Assembly (NCBI RefSeq): GCF_000613445.1
Contig: NZ_BAIZ01000013.1
Coordinates: 1 to 64,000 of the forward strand
Direction of reading: 5' to 3'
DNA length: 64,000 nucleotides
Source: Hoylesella shahii DSM 15611 = JCM 12083
GTDB taxonomy: Bacteria; Bacteroidota; Bacteroidia; Bacteroidales; Bacteroidaceae
Shown: positions 12,642-58,577 of the stretch, piece by piece
Layout of the letters: each line of letters opens with the position of its first letter
How positions within the stretch are numbered: the stretch's first letter is position 1
The notes under the pieces: generated by a model
What the model was told of the DNA's origin: nothing
What the model saw: only the letters and a program-made list of their open reading frames with translations
The model's database searches: none
Made by a program: the position numbers and the translations under genes

Positions 12642-13006
12642 ATATACTAATTTGCATTAAGCGATGAATAGGGGCTGCCCCTATGGAGCGCCCCTATCGT
12701 ATTGTTCAGCAAACATTGTACCGCGAAACAGCGCGGTAACAAATGTTACTGTTAGCTTTTTGAGGTGGTGAGTTTGTGAGCTTTTAAGTCTTTGAGTTTT
12801 GAGTTTTGAGGTTGTGAGTTTATGAGTTATTGCGTTCATCAGTTGATTTGTTGATGCTAAGCATGGCCTAACCCTAACATATCTGCAACTCAAAACCTCA
12901 TAAACTCAAAACCTCAAAAACTCAAAAACTCACAACCTTAAAATCTCAAAAACACAAAGCCTTAAAAACTCAAAAACTCAAAAACTCAAAGACTCAAAAC
13001 CTCACC
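12642..13006. other. Spacer between infB and sufB with two hairpins and low-complexity repeats
   Basis: From left to right it contains GATAGGGGC / GCCCCTATC (a 9-bp inverted repeat near 12668-12698), a TACCGCG / CGCGGTA hairpin (12719-12738), and the repeat tract described separately (12762-13005). One hairpin probably ends the rimP-nusA-infB transcript, though neither has a good T tail on the minus strand. No gene is visible. Confidence 0.55.
12762..13005. repeat. Inverted low-complexity tract (TGAGTTTT / CTCAAAAA repeats)
   Basis: The left part (12762-12826) is built of units such as TTTGAGTTTTGAG and GTTGTGAG. The right part (12886-13005) is built of 8-nt CTCAAAAA units with variants CTCAAAAC and CTCACAAC. 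The two are roughly complementary, so they can fold into a long imperfect hairpin around a 59-bp core (12827-12885). The tract abuts the infB stop codon. Confidence 0.75.
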
Positions 13007-17328: not shown

Positions 17329-17679
17329 AGGGTTTATTATCGTTTGATGTGGTCTTGCCCCAATATTGCAAACTGTTTGCACGCGTTAATGGTGTTTCCA
17401 CGTTTCAACAGCATGAGGCTAGCCTATTAATTTCTCCTTTTAATGATTAATTTATGCGCTGATAAGTTAACGAGGGAGCGAAAGGATTTTAAAGGTGAAA
17501 GAGTGAAAGGGCCAAAGGAATTTTAAAGGTGAAAGGGATTTTAAAGGTGAAAAGTGGCTAACGAAGCCTATCTATTCGGATTAATTCCTACTTACTACTT
17601 ACTACTTACTCCTTTACTACTTACTCCTTTACTCCTTACTACTTACTCCTTACTCCTTACTCCTTACTCCACAGAAACA
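17329..17679. repeat. Two short-period repeat tracts between rimP and nusA
   Basis: At 17481-17552 the unit GGATTTTAAAGGTGAAAG recurs with variations. At 17586-17670 a TTACTCC / TTACTAC heptamer, sometimes octamer, is repeated about eleven times. Neither has a coding look. The tracts separate two genes that are normally adjacent in one operon and would sit inside the transcript. Confidence 0.8.
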
Positions 17680-19287: not shown

Positions 19288-19510
19288 GAAAAACGAAGGT
19301 TAATTTTGATAAACTAGCCTTAATTTTAAAATTTAACGGTATGTGTTGGTTGGGCGTTTTTACTAAAATTGGCCTGAAAGCCTTTAAAACTGGGGTACCA
19401 TCGTTGATGTTTGGTACTACAGGGACAAAGAAATAACCTCCCCACAAGTGCATTTGGCCTACTACATGGTGCATTTTGAGCAAATGCTGCTACTGAGCAA
19501 GACGCAAAAT

Positions 19511-19547
19511 GTAAATTTTTTGCACCAAAATTTAACATTAAGAGTGC
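19511..19547 (+). repeat. Conserved AT-rich block associated with 22-nt array A
   Basis: The block contains TTTGCACCAAAATTTAACA followed by TTAAGAGTGC. It matches the reverse complement of 33238-33276 at 31 of 37 positions. In both places it stands roughly 240-260 bp on the same side of a six-unit array when the arrays are put in the same orientation. Confidence 0.65.
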
Positions 19548-19785
19548 GGCCTCTGCAAAATTACTGGATGTTGGCTGTATTTAAGCGCGTATTTTTAAAG
19601 TTTATAACATCCTGATTTACACATAATTACCATAAACAAAGCCCAAAATACCACTTTTCACCCCCGCAAAAACGAATATAAATGCATCGAAAGCGCATCG
19701 CGGCATTAGCTCATCATAAGGGCATTATTTATGAGGAAAGTGTGCTTTTTGATGGTTTTTGCGCTCCATTTTTACGTTTTAGATA

Positions 19786-19917
19786 GTGTTTTGCACCAAA
19801 TAGCTGTGTTATCTCTATCACTTTACCTTGTTATCTCTATGAGTTAGCATGGCTATTTGCTGCAGTTAGCAATGCTATCTCTATGAGTTAGCAAGCTTAT
19901 TTGCTATAAATAGCAAC
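19786..19917 (+). repeat. 22-nt tandem array A, six units
   Basis: Six contiguous 22-nt units start at 19786, 19808, 19830, 19852, 19874 and 19896. The better conserved units read GCTATCTCTATGAGTTAGCA or GCTATTTGCTGCAGTTAGCA plus two bases. The 16-mer TTTGCTGCAGTTAGCA also occurs, reversed, in array B. Units differ from one another but the period never slips. Confidence 0.85.
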
Positions 19918-20220
19918 TGCGATTGTGTGTTTTTATTCTCAGGAATATGCAATTTGGGGTGTGAAGTTTTGTATTTTTGAATACAACTGCGTGGTGTTTT
20001 TGGGAAAGGGAAACGCAAAAACATAGTAAATTGCAATAAATGGGACAAAGAACGAAGCGATGCTGATGGTTAAAATTGTCTTTTGGGGGCATTTTTCGTT
20101 CCTTTTGAGGGGTGTTACTGTCTAGAATGCATGGCGAAAAGGTTGACATTTGTAAAGTTTTATCACTGCATTAACATTGTCTTAATGCCTCTCTTAACCC
20201 AAAGCCCCCCAAAAAACAAA

Positions 20221-30800: not shown

Positions 30801-31094
30801 TACAGCAACGGACATGGATTCCCCTGGGTGTACAAAGAACTGGGCATCGGCAAACTCATCGGTACACCTGTGGCTGGTACAATGACCGCCGTTTGGTGGG
30901 AAAGCATGCTCGACCCCTCCATCGTCTTTGGTATTCCACAAGTGGGATGTCGCGACTTGCGCGGTAACTACGGCGAAAACACGCAGCTCAACCCCGACAT
31001 CGAAGTGTATAACACACCTGAAGACTATATCAATGGTTACGACCGACAACTGATTAAGGCCGTGGAAGAAATGATGAAGGTGGTGAAGAAATAA
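27853..31094 (+). CDS. Tricorn-like S41 family secreted protease, interrupted by a -1 frameshift
   Basis: A large exported peptidase of the tricorn type. Signal peptide MMKTTLTIMALALATTASA is followed by QENPLWLRH. Two beta-propeller regions made of TolB/WD-like repeats (SPDGS, SPDSK, APDGR) come first. They are joined by a Lys/Asp/Glu-rich linker near residue 570. A tricorn core, a PDZ-like segment (about 790-860) and the S41 domain follow, with NGGGW, YSNGHGF (likely nucleophile serine) and GTMTAVWW. The first frame breaks at 27966-27972 (VAF, then CYKGDIYTV in the next frame). One base is missing, and 1080 residues are restored by adding it. Members are thought to degrade peptides in the periplasm or envelope. 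A promoter lies at 27704-27734 and a palindrome follows the stop. Confidence 0.88.
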
Positions 31095-31099
31095 AAAAA

Positions 31100-31140
31100 G
31101 CCTCACCCCCAGCCCCTCTCCAAGGGAGAGGGGAGTGATT
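31100..31140 (-). repeat. GC-rich palindromic repeat, copy 2
   Basis: GCCTCACCCCCAGCCCCTCT followed by the CCCCTCTCC / GGAGAGGGG palindrome and AGTGATT. It is the reverse complement of 31301-31341 apart from one G. It begins 5 nt after the protease stop codon and may act as its terminator. Confidence 0.8.
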
Positions 31141-31300
31141 AGCCAGGCTGCTTTATCGTGATTTGGATAGTAATGGCAATTAATGTATAGTCCCTCTCAC
31201 CCCACTTGCCTATTAGTCCCTATCTATTTCATCAACCCTATTAGCCCCTATCTGTTCCAACAGCACCAATACGGTTAATTACCCAATAAAAACAAAGCAT

Positions 31301-31341
31301 ATCACTCCCCTCTCCCCTTGGAGAGGGGCTGGGGGTGAGGC
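31301..31341 (+). repeat. GC-rich palindromic repeat, copy 3
   Basis: ATCACTCCCCTCTCCCCTTG continuing to GAGAGGGGCTGGGGGTGAGGC. It forms an inverted pair with copy 2, enclosing 160 bp of AT-rich sequence, and ends 24 nt before the WYL regulator gene. Copy 1 is at 8221-8260. Confidence 0.8.
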
Positions 31342-31364
31342 TCATTTATTAACATAAAGTCCCA

Positions 31365-32306: not shown

Positions 32307-32841
32307 TTATCTTTAACCACACGCTAGCGGTTTTCTTTCCCTCACTCTTTTGGGATTAACAATGCCTTTGCCACCTTATTTCGGCTAAAGCATTAACCCA
32401 AATCTCGGTCGTTAGACTGCTTATCACAAACTGTATATTGTTTTCATGGCGTCCATTCTCTCTTTCGTTTGCTTGTTTGCCTCATGCCTCGTTCATGCTT
32501 TTGGTGTATTGCCCTACTTATTCTTCTACAACAAAGGCAATGCACTCAACAATACACAAACGTCAAAACACGCTAACCACTAATTTACCATTATATACCG
32601 TCTGTTAAATTGGTAAATATATTTTACAAAACACACCCTTCCAAACCCACCCTTCTAGAGAAAATTGACCGCTAAAAACCATCTAAAACGCCATTTTTTG
32701 ATTAAAAAAGGAAACCATCGCCACCATTTTTCGCCCCACTATTTGCAATTTACTATGACTTTAGCCTTCTATTTCAAGAAAAATTGCGCTATATTCGCAG
32801 CCAACTTTGCAAAAAAATACGCAGATTTTAGGTACAATTAG

Positions 32842-32973
32842 CACTGCAAAATGCAGCAAAACGCACTGCTAACTGCAGCAAAACACATGGCTATCTCCTA
32901 CAAAACGCAAGGTTAAATGCAGCAAAACGCACTGCTAAATGCAGCAAAATGCGAGACAGAATGTCACAAAACA
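32842..32973 (-). repeat. 22-nt tandem array B, six units
   Basis: Six contiguous units start at 32842, 32864, 32886, 32908, 32930 and 32952. On the plus strand they read CACTGCTAACTGCAGCAAAA plus two bases and variants. The reverse complement of the second unit contains TTTGCTGCAGTTAGCA, identical to a 16-mer in array A. A seventh, weaker unit may follow. Confidence 0.85.
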
Positions 32974-33237
32974 CACCGCTCAAAAGAAGAAATCAGAAGA
33001 TAACAGCACGAAAATAAGCATACGAAAGACAATTAATTAACAAAATGTAAACTTGCAACAAATATCAGCTTCGCAGCCATTACACGGGCGATTAAATATG
33101 CTAAGCACCTGTATATACAAGCAAACAATGGCGTTTTTCCAGTTAAAACCTCATAAGCAAATGAAATTCAGTACCTTACAAACTCTCGGAATACGCCCAA
33201 ATTTCCGCCTCGCGCCCGAAAATTTCTCACAGAAGGC

Positions 33238-33276
33238 ACTCACAATGTTAAAATTTGGTACAAATATTTTACACGC
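33238..33276 (-). repeat. Conserved AT-rich block associated with array B
   Basis: In reverse complement it reads GTAAAATATTTGTACCAAAT followed by TTTAACATTGTGAGTGC, matching 19511-19547 at 31 of 37 positions. It lies about 260 bp from array B on the side equivalent to that in array A. Confidence 0.65.
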
Positions 33277-49707: not shown

Positions 49708-50784
49708 GGGCTTGGTCTTCTTTGCCACTCCCCCCCCGCCTCTGCATGGCCTTTCTACCGATTTTTGCCCGCTTATGTGGCGCAAAAGCTGCTCCCAAGG
49801 GGTCTTTAATCCTTCATCTAGTAAGGTTGTTTTCTTAGCTTTACTAGATGTACAGTCTGCTGTTTTGTAAAAATTTTTAACCAAATAACTCGTTAAAAAC
49901 AGCCTATAAAAGCTTCCAAGCTCACTATCGCCTGCATTTTTGGGCGTATTTCTTAAGTTTATAAACACCTGTGACACTGCAACTTACGTCAAAAACAATA
50001 CAAAACACTATGTTTTAGACCCAATTTAGCAGTCAAACAGCAAAAGAAAGAAAAGCCCAAGCCCACTTTGCGCAGAGTGTGAATGTGTCTGGGTTTTCTT
50101 CTTTATGCCTCCTACCTAACATTTTATTGCCTAAACCTTGTTATTCTTGTTAAATAGAAAGACATATAACCATGACTAGAAGCAAAACGAAAACAAATAG
50201 CTATAAACTACAACATTTTGATATTTTAAAACGTGCATTTTACTCTGCTAACTCGTGCATTTTGCACTGCTAACTCATGCATTTTGCACTGCTAACTCGT
50301 GCATTTAGCAAGGCTAACTCATGCATTTTGCAAGTCGTTTTGCTGCATTTTGCAAAAAAGCAGGAGCGTTTTGAGTGTTCAAAAACATCACTTCGGGCGA
50401 AAATCATGAACAGGAAATGAGGTTTTGAACCAATTTTGGGCGACGAAAAAATCCACTTGGCGAAGCTTTGGCAAACGCAAAATGCTGCATTTTGCAAAAA
50501 ATAAGGGGCAAAATCGTGCTGAACCACACGCCAAATGTTCGCCAAAAAGGCCAAAACCTATGTTTTTGGCGCGTTATTTTTTCTAGAATTACTCGGATTG
50601 AAATGTTAATATGTAAAACATTTTTATCAAACACGATATTCCATCAGCCACTCCCCAACCCAATTAAACACATGGTTGACCCACGCATAAAGAAAAGCGC
50701 ACCAGCTTAGACCAAAGTCTTTGCCGGTGCGCCAGGGTTAAATAATGGTGGGTCTTAAGGTTAAATGCCCGTGTTGTACCTCAC
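49708..50784. other. Gene-free region with the third 22-nt array
   Basis: 1077 bp between the LOG gene and the SusD remnant. No coding frame is supported. Besides array C (50224-50355), it has a weaker version of the conserved block (50591-50635, sharing TTAACATT in reverse) about 235 bp from the array. It also has a segment of GCG/CCAAA-rich sequence (50500-50570) that resembles part of the array B spacer in reverse. Confidence 0.65.
50224..50355 (-). repeat. 22-nt tandem array C, six units
   Basis: Six contiguous units start at 50224, 50246, 50268, 50290, 50312 and 50334. The four central units read TGCTAACTCGTGCATTTTGC or TGCTAACTCATGCATTTTGC plus two bases. In reverse they share ATGAGTTAGCA with array A. 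The outer two units keep TGCATTTT but lose the TAACTC part. Confidence 0.88.
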
Positions 50785-52496: not shown

Positions 52497-54850
52497 ATGC
52501 AACAAAATTTAGTGATCGTAGAGAGCCCCGCAAAGGCTAAAACCATTGAAAAATTCCTTGGAAAAGATTTCAAGGTAATGTCCAGTTATGGACATATACG
52601 AGACCTGAAAAAAACTGGATTGAGTGTAGACCTTAACTCTTTCGAACCTCATTACGAAATCTCTGACGACAAAAAGAAGGTGGTGGCCGAACTACAAAAG
52701 GCCGCTAAGGCAGCCCAACGTGTGTGGTTGGCAAGTGATGAAGACCGCGAGGGAGAGGCTATTTCATGGCATTTGTGCGAAGTTCTGGGACTTGACGAAG
52801 AGAAAACCAACCGAATTGTTTTCCACGAGATAACTAAACCTGCTATTCTGCGAGCCATCGAACAACCTAGGCACGTGGATATGAACCTGGTGGATGCGCA
52901 GCAAGCGCGCCGTGTGCTCGACCGTATGGTGGGCTTTATGCTCTCGCCCATCCTTTGGCGCAAGGTTAAACCGTCGCTTTCGGCTGGTAGAGTGCAGAGC
53001 GTTGCCGTTAGATTGGTGGTTGACCGCGAACGAGAACTGCACGCTTTCAAGGCCGAACCCTTCTATCGCGTTACGGCTATCTTCGCCATCACCAACGAAG
53101 AGGGTGGCATTACCGAAGTGGATGCCGAACTGGATACGCGTTTTAAAACGCACGAAGAGGCTTTGGCCTTCCTTGAGAAATGCAAAAACGCTAGCTTTAG
53201 CGTGGAAAGCGTGGCCAAAAAGCCATCGAAACGCTCGCCGGCTCCACCCTTTACCACTTCTACGTTGCAACAAGAGGCTGCTAGAAAACTGGGCTTTAGC
53301 GTGTCGCAAACCATGATGGTGGCGCAAAGATTGTACGAAAGCGGACGCATTACCTACATGCGTACCGACAGCGTTAACCTCTCGGGTCTTTGTATTAACG
53401 CCACTAAAGAGGAGGTTATACAGCAATGGGGCGAACAATATAGTGCTCCACGCAACTTCCATACCCATGCCAAAGGGGCGCAAGAGGCGCACGAGGCCAT
53501 CCGCCCCACCTACATGAACGTAACCAAGATTGAGGGTACACAACAAGAAAAGAAACTGTACGACCTGATTTGGAAACGAACTACCGCCTCGCAAATGGCC
53601 GAAGCGCAGGTTGAAAAAACACGCGTAACGATTAACATCACTGGCGCAAGCGAACATTTCGTTGCAACGGGCGAGGTGATTGTGTTCGATGGTTTCCTCA
53701 AAGTGTATCGCGAATCTACCGACGATGAGGATGAAGCACAGCAAGATGCTTCGAGAATGTTGCCCCCAATGAAAGAAGGCGACAAACTCGAACGCAGAGA
53801 AATTACGGCTATCGAACGCTTTAGCCAAGGTCCATCGCGTTATACCGAAGCTAGCTTGGTGCACAAAATGGAAGAATTGGGCATCGGCCGACCATCTACT
53901 TATGCGCCCACCATCAGCACCATTCAACAAAGACAATACGTAACACGTGGCGACAGCAAAGGCAAAGAGCGACAATATGTGGTGGATACGCTTAAAGGAC
54001 TGGTGATAACCACCAAGAATAAAAAAGAGAATGTTGGCGGAGACAAGGGTAAACTGCTACCCACCGATGTGGGTATCGTGGTGAACGACTTCCTTATGGA
54101 GAGCTTCCCCAGCATCATGGACTATAATTTCACGGCACGAGTGGAAGAAGATTTCGACCGCATTGCTGAAGGACAAGAGCAATGGAAGGAAATGATGAAG
54201 AACTTCTATGCTGGATTTGGGCCTACGGTAGACACCGTGATGAACGCTCGCTCGGAACATAAAGCTGGCGAAAGGGTACTGGGCGAAGACCCCGCAACGG
54301 GCAAACCTGTGCTCGTGAAGATTGGAAGATTTGGACCCGTGGCACAAATTGGTATCGCTAGCGACGACGAAAAACCGCGCTTCTCTAATCTCACCGCCGG
54401 ACTAAGTATCGAAACTATCACACTTGAGGAGGCGCTCGAACTCTTTAAACTGCCTCGAACTATCGGAGAATTTGAAGGAAAACCTGTGGTAATTGGCACT
54501 GGAAGATTTGGACCCTACATCTTACATGATAAGAAATACACCTCGCTGCCTAGCACAGAAGACCCACATTCGGTGACGCTTGAAACATCGGTGGCCCTTA
54601 TCGAACAAAAAAGGATGCAAGAGAAACAAAAGCATCTGAAATCGTTTAGCGAGGACGAGAAACTCGAAGTAATAAACGGAAAGTATGGTCCGTACCTGGC
54701 TTACGATGCAAAAACTATAAACTGCCCAAAGAACTGCACGAAAAAGCGGCCGAACTTACCTACGAACAATGCATGGAACTGGTGAACGCTGCGCCCGCAA
54801 AGCCTAAAAAGACTACGCGAAAAACTGCTACCAGCAAGGCTAAGAAATAA
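52497..54850 (+). CDS. topA: DNA topoisomerase I, interrupted by a -1 frameshift near the 3' end
   Basis: A 784-residue type IA topoisomerase that relaxes negative supercoils. The TOPRIM domain opens with LVIVESPAKAKTIEKFLG and contains SDEDREGEAISWHL. The active-site tyrosine is in GRITYMRTDSVNLS. The C-terminal region has Bacteroidetes-type repeats (KPVLVKIGRFGPVAQIG, KPVVIGTGRFGPYI, NGKYGPYLAYD). The frame breaks at 54708-54709: after GKYGPYLAYD the family continues in the next frame with KNYKLPKELHEKAAELTYEQ to a Lys-rich end (TTRKTATSKAKK) at 54850. One base is missing. aroK follows after 45 nt. Confidence 0.94.
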
Positions 54851-58445: not shown

Positions 58446-58577
58446 ATCCTTCTAACATTTGTTATTCGTTTGCAATATTACAAAAAAATCACGAGCTTAG
58501 CAAGCCTTCAAGTAATTTTTGACTTACAACAAGTGTTTAAAGCCCTGCAACGCAAAGGCCATTTCAACTTTTATTGT

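Follow-up and report, generated by a model that had tools for sequence, protein, structure and literature searches.

The window, that is, the whole 64,000-nt stretch of DNA analysed here, contains three copies (A, B and C) of an oriented, noncoding element of roughly 640 bp that bears the same ~30-bp motif (TTTTGTAAA-N12-TTTAACA) at both ends (Table 1). Elements A and B belong to type 1, and element C represents a second, diverged type (type 2) to which most other copies belong; the two types have the ends and the array in common and differ in the intervening blocks. Re-reading of the sequence agreed with the original prediction on the array of element A, which has six 22-nt units without slippage, on the 239-bp gap between block and array, and on the unit core TTTGCTGCAGTTAGCA common to arrays A and B, with ATGAGTTAGCA in array C, and a re-count gave 31 of 37 identities between the block of element A (19511-19547) and that of element B. 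Element A extends to about 20176, where it closes with a second copy of the first 30 bp of this block. Tandem Repeats Finder reported period 22 in all three arrays and also period 44 in A and C, and the outer array units are degenerate.

Table 1. Positions of elements A, B and C and of the parts of element A in the window.
Feature	Position	Strand	Basis
Element A (type 1), whole	19510..20176	+	profile T1 match 19499-20182, E 1e-114; ends read
Left end repeat TGTAAA..TTTAACA	19510..19540	+	in all 17 aligned copies
Left conserved block	19510..19634	+	79% mean column identity, 19 aligned copies; model R1
Array, six 22-nt units	19786..19917	+	Tandem Repeats Finder and sequence reading
Tail block GAAA..GCAAAAACATAGTAAA	19998..20040	+	alignment columns 521-560
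CTAGAA motif, ahead of right end repeat	20122..20127	+	two alignments of copies
Right end repeat, direct copy of left	20149..20176	+	model R2, from 39 right ends
Element B (type 1), whole; array about 32842-32973	32603..33273	-	T1 match 32598-33276, E 2e-137; ends read
Whole element C (diverged type 2), with array at about 50224-50355	49864..50640	+	T2 match 49928-50630, E 4e-60; outer limits approximate, end-like motif at 49864

Other repeats are present in the window and beside elements elsewhere. A ~50-nt sequence occurs as two inverted copies between two genes (31088-31139 and 31290-31342); it has dozens of copies, mostly at 90-98% identity, in the related genome G392, which is very probably Prevotella conceptionensis 9403948, and constitutes a separate short REP-like family. 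An 8-nt-unit minisatellite (AACTCAAA / TTTGTGAG) lies between two genes at 12757-13004, and similar AACTCATCAACTC tracts are found beside an element in G392. The CTTACTC minisatellite at 17591-17670 shows a 22-nt higher-order period and has matches in G392 contigs C3 and C8. CRISPR-like repeats (GTCTTAATCCTTGTTTTAATGGAAGATGCACTAG..) occupy about 600-830 of L003 on the minus strand, a few hundred bases from an element, and a 66-nt tandem array of 5.5 copies (L046 1737-2100) adjoins an element of another genome, G016. The topoisomerase I gene at 52497-54785 of the window, about 1.9 kb beyond element C, is probably there by coincidence.

Copies, architecture and length steps

Positions 19511-19917, queried against their own genome (G000), gave 44 matches on many contigs, and the end-motif pattern gave 54 matches versus 1 for a reversed control, so the repeats occur far beyond chance. 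Model R1 (left block, 125 positions) found at least 58 matches in this genome and model R2, which covers 80 positions of the right end and derives from 39 such ends of both types, at least 133; merging of the two, with element C added by eye, resulted in at least 139 elements on 65 contigs, the located copies being mostly of 0.56-0.7 kb. The claim of a defined repeated element rather than microsatellite decay was borne out by this search, as the elements share flanks and, where both ends could be placed, their lengths cluster in steps of 22; by the criterion set beforehand, the claim would have failed had no additional copies turned up, or had the arrays lacked common flanking sequence. Solo end motifs as footprints were rejected, since 19 of 20 end motifs fetched outside the known copies belong to an array-bearing element and the remaining one (L106) sits at a contig start. 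By a hand estimate (139 copies of about 0.65 kb in 3.49 Mb), the elements make up ~2-3% of the chromosome.

The alignment of 17 copies begins sharply at the left end (TGTAAAATATTTG.ACCAAATTTTAACATTATGAGTGCC) with a conserved left block of ~120 bp; a spacer of poor conservation leads to the array, after which come a tail block, CTAGAA and the right end (TTTTGTAAAATATATTTACC..TTTAACA). The end motifs are direct copies of each other, and only their outermost 6-7 nt (TGTAAA / TTTAACA) are inverted. Scored in bins of 20 columns, the pairwise identity of the copies amounts to 0.79-0.84 at the left end, falls to 0.37-0.41 within the spacer (columns 161-280) and is 0.62-0.71 over the array; the tail block (columns 521-560) reaches 73-75%, compared with 34-52% for the preceding 60 columns and 40-46% for the following 40. 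The copies mostly differ from one another by 20-35%, with only 3 of 913 full-length pairs at 85% identity or above; two pairs are 93-94% identical, and the surroundings of the one pair checked are unrelated. The copies also contain 33 exact shared stretches, many in or near the array, which were not used as evidence.

Lengths were read in the 32 of 133 rows (31 of type 2, one element being present twice as L119 and L122) in which strict end patterns lie 560-720 bp apart, the start nearest 650 being taken where several left starts fitted. The length is 634-637 bp in 19 rows, 612-615 in 3 and 655-658 in 5, and the remaining five measure 640, 641, 679, 685 and 691 bp, so that besides the 19 another 9 of the 32 rows lie one or two 22-nt units away from 634-637 bp. 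A second measure, the start-to-start distance, was taken in 20 copies from the first search, among them C: 6 copies fall at 617-620, 8 at 640-644, and one each at 598 and 705, and 4 lack the end motif that it requires. Element length varies mainly by whole 22-nt units, although the spacers resemble each other poorly. As the steps are of 22, the arrays differ by whole units, and the predicted number of six is not a strict rule.

Each unit of the array can be read as two half-words. At least three units fitting TG[CT]-N15-[AG]CA in register were found in 71 of 127 elements, whose 520 half-words comprise 40 different ones, the top ten accounting for 91% and TGCGTTTTG, TGCATTTAG and TGCTAACTC leading. 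Units with two identical halves number 10 of 260, against about 39 expected (a hand estimate from half-word frequencies), and perfect palindromes seem to be avoided. In the right spacer of type 2, identity was only 46% in register; it was 41% at an offset of 1 nt, and 29% both at an offset of 3 nt and after shuffling. For five sets of elements taken from four genomes, lag 22 gives the strongest repeat signal of all lags from 8 to 69, and 44 and 66 come next.

Several known classes were considered. A CRISPR array was rejected, in agreement with the original prediction, since the units are contiguous and unlike each other, with no unique spacers; no Rfam family matched. A coding repeat was also rejected on account of short frames and of substitutions that are not coding-like: the longest stop-free stretches in 30 type-2 rows are 53-102 aa, and one minus-strand frame open over 52 codon columns at no more than 10% stops shrinks to a run of 19 once a duplicate row is removed, which is stop-free in 22 of 29 rows, starts with ATG in 1 of 29 and shows no third-position excess of change (0.55, 0.48, 0.51).

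Spacing between copies

Neighbouring copies avoid each other. In G000, the 74 neighbour intervals among the located copies (at least 139; weak copies may be missing) are never shorter than 8.94 kb, their median being 19.8 kb and their CV 0.42, and on the 34 contigs longer than 25 kb none of 73 intervals is below 8 kb, against 25 expected (2000 uniform simulations, minimum 14). The 700 kb of G392, scanned in full with profiles as was the 64-kb window, hold 42 full-size copies and three fragments. The full copies give 40 intervals with a minimum of 8.08 kb, none below 8 kb against 15.5 expected (5000 simulations, minimum 6), and a CV of 0.37 against 0.95, the fragments of 65 and 145 bp and a 368-bp half copy being left out. 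This half copy is inverted and lies about 0.4 kb from a full element (C4:343464-344842), forming the only close pair in the 700 kb; the 1,378-bp cluster of the two entered the spacing as one element, ~0.7 kb off, with no interval falling below 8 kb.

The complete genome G016 has 4 of 133 intervals below 5 kb, or 1 of 130 with three doubtful matches dropped, against 24 expected (minimum 9). On rechecking, the dropped matches proved to be the opposite strand of a counted element, a 51-bp fragment and the second of two partial copies, which is 0.8 kb from the first and better kept than dropped; the true close pairs are these two partial copies and two full copies 4.8 kb apart. The overall spacing in G016 is irregular (CV 1.13). 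For G024, also complete, the smallest interval is 17.2 kb among 35 listed copies (P 0.0014), these being the places taken from the best 40 of 93 candidates with short partial ones left out, and in an 800-kb scan, 13 full-size copies with no interval below 25.6 kb were accompanied by a weak match of 426 bp and 8 weak fragments of smaller size. Gaps of more than 100 kb between elements occur in both G016 and G024.

The exclusion is independent of relative orientation, 10 of the closest 25 neighbour pairs in G000 and 20 of the closest 40 in G016 being direct. Deletion between close direct copies was rejected as the cause of the spacing, as inverted close pairs are equally scarce. Copies are thus scarce near copies, as target immunity would have it, in four genomes with few exceptions; since these exceptions are few against the 15-25 expected, the odds of the readings weighed below are left unchanged.

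Occurrence and turnover in related genomes

Among 398 genomes of the genus, model R1 matched 12, the own genome included, and model R3, built from 21 elements of G016, matched 94; G000 is not among these, and since R3 misses the G000 form, its absence elsewhere leaves room for other forms. In an order-level sample, R3 matched 1 of 295 genomes, marginally. An autocorrelation scan for 22-nt arrays was uninformative in G392, which has many other minisatellites, and too strict for G016. The choice of G024 rested on its being complete and having one weak R3 match. Self-comparison of 400 kb of it resulted in seven noncoding copies of about 830 bp, six of which match the first at 71-80% identity, and Tandem Repeats Finder detected a 22-nt repeat in 5 of the seven, one of these outside the array; the G000 profiles gave a single match in 800 kb of G024, located in one array. 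The elements of G016 and G024 are diverged or largely unrelated in sequence, also with a central 22-nt array and also mutually avoiding with few exceptions. In the G024 elements (e.g. G024:C1:126517-127344), an inverted repeat AAGTGTCGAAGTGTC flanks the array; a 7-nt core of both halves was detected in 7 of the 13 copies, at a distance of 353-355 bp in 6 of them and of 317 bp in the seventh.

Positions are partly kept between G000 and G392. Where a flank of a G000 element has an orthologue in the 700 kb of G392, an element lies within 1.5 kb on the element side in 15 of 30 cases and on the far side in 2 of 29 (16 of 32 and 2 of 31 before two duplicate window rows were removed by hand), a distance that does not always mean the same gap, the G392 counterpart of element A being one gene away. 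Of the 15 shared positions, 9 have the elements in matching and 6 in opposite orientation; in 8, a type 1 copy in G000 corresponds to a type 2 copy in G392, and one is the 145-bp fragment. The mean identity of type 2 is 0.774 within G392, 0.718 within G000 and 0.708 between them. Pairs at orthologous positions were rejected as closest relatives, being not consistently more alike than random pairs, in a comparison where the gapped aligner compressed the scores and the L107 prefix fitted five elements, which makes those rows uninformative. A precise comparison of empty sites between the two genomes was likewise given up, as the intergenic DNA is too diverged.

In G392 the window corresponds to rearranged blocks of contig C4, with elements at several breaks and other breaks without an element (e.g. 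window 23391/23550). In G392, the left gene of element B is found next to an element oriented like B, and the right gene of B lies elsewhere, beside the 145-bp fragment. Window positions 58576 and 58692 are separated by 116 bp; in G392, an element lies next to each of them. Of 861 pairs in G392, these two elements have the longest stretch in common, 106 nt with at most 2 differences, which suggests an exchange between them.

Candidate roles of the element

The reading preferred here, tentatively and at somewhat less than an even chance, is that the element is a protein-binding platform, nearly constant in size, by which the chromosome is marked at intervals. About six putative 22-bp sites, each of two inverted ~9-nt half-sites (TGC......), would lie on one face of the helix between the two end motifs TGTAAA..TTTAACA. 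Platforms of this kind would occur in large number, seldom within ~5-9 kb of each other (at least 17 kb for full copies in one genome), as marks on the chromosome with a probable part in its organisation, anchoring or insulation; selection would keep each copy whole and nearly constant in length, and ectopic recombination or replacement may turn over the sequence faster than the position. Copies that are 20-35% different, yet mostly whole, clustered in size and apart from each other, point to selection on each copy or to a process that tolerates only whole copies. Plasmid-origin iteron arrays provide a familiar likeness, with several ~22-bp units in helical register beside AT-rich DNA, as here. 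The present elements differ from iterons in having more than 100 chromosomal copies and inverted pairs of half-words from a small vocabulary, with no single repeated site. The long gaps in G016 and G024, together with the irregularity of G016, speak against a chromosome-wide structural role. The close pairs in G392 and G016, which make the exclusion not absolute, also count against the platform, as do the half of the testable positions unshared with G392 and the occurrence of the R3 form in just 94 of 398 genus genomes, although R3 misses the G000 form.

Close behind comes a MITE-like non-autonomous mobile element, quite possible if given less credence than the platform, whose putative recombinase or transposase would show target immunity and bind the 22-bp sites. 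Transposition immunity of Mu and Tn7 extends over several kb and involves 22-bp protein sites, so that both the exclusion over several kb and the unit size of the present element have a parallel there; in the present element, by contrast, the sites are mid-element rather than terminal and no target duplication was found. Short-range exclusion whatever the orientation fits a mobile element, as do the two 93-94% identical pairs, one of them in unrelated surroundings, the lineage-specific families with long empty stretches in G016 and G024, and the outer ends TGTAAA..TTTAACA, which look like an inverted pair. The end motif as a whole, however, is a direct repeat, and no target-site duplication was detected in the 32 rows with both ends (k 3-10, best z 2.7 of 288 combinations versus shuffled pairs). 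Further points against mobility are that no longer, gene-carrying version is among the located copies, that only 3 fragments occur in 700 kb of G392 despite the mostly 20-35% divergence (G024 has 8 in 800 kb), and that half of the testable positions are common to both species.

It is unlikely that the copies are functionless dispersed repeats, homogenised and moved by mutual homologous recombination, with the spacing resulting from the loss of close copies. Several breaks of gene order between G000 and G392 do fall at elements, for instance on both sides of 58576/58692, and the near-identical 106-nt stretch there would fit such recombination. Other breaks lack an element, however, deletion would remove direct pairs only, yet inverted close pairs are equally scarce, and neutral repeats would not hold their length in steps of 22. 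REP/REPIN and other dispersed repeats likewise have many intergenic copies; the present elements differ from them in a size of about 640 bp, a central array and copies spaced apart. A structured noncoding RNA or a transcribed regulatory element of neighbouring genes is very improbable: the elements are intergenic and oriented with conserved blocks, convergent or divergent genes flank 19 of 41 G392 elements versus 65 of 221 other intergenic gaps, and BrickBuilt segments of Porphyromonas gingivalis contain promoter elements according to the accessible text of PMC4596501, but neither an Rfam match nor a conserved fold was found (consensus energy -4.1 kcal/mol over 755 columns, both-sided change in 4 of 27 pairs), and the 41 G392 elements show no direction preference relative to neighbouring genes (9, 9, 10, 13).

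BrickBuilt, a minisatellite MITE of P. gingivalis, is the nearest description found in the literature; as the accessible text has it, 23-nt tandem units, 1 to 22.8 per locus, stand between a leader and a tail, parts of both of which are present in 11 of 19 loci, and the inverted ends GAGACC are IS5-like (PMC4596501). Both families belong to the same order and are intergenic, multicopy and noncoding with short tandem units in the centre; judged by that text, the present elements differ in the period of 22, the clustering of length by one-unit steps, the mostly whole copies, the direct-repeat ends TGTAAA and the mutual avoidance of copies (PMC4596501). The accessible text of the MITE review PMC10969869 held no match to the terms sought. 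In a literature search with most subscription papers outside its scope, no earlier description of these Prevotella elements was found, nor was any report of position kept and sequence replaced at dispersed bacterial sites.

In eukaryotic centromere satellites, the sequence turns over and the position is kept. The copies, their architecture, length steps and spacing, period 22 in four genomes and shared positions with changed type are observed here, and the platform reading can be carried a step further, with a little less confidence than the platform itself: Prevotella chromosomes may be punctuated by fast-evolving, centromere-like or insulator-like platforms whose spacing, and partly position, is kept and whose sequence is replaced between species, with lineage-specific word sets and presumably a co-evolving binding protein. 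More than 100 spaced, mostly intact noncoding elements in one chromosome, which recur elsewhere in the genus as other sequence, would represent either a hitherto unknown layer of chromosome organisation or a strongly self-avoiding mobile family.
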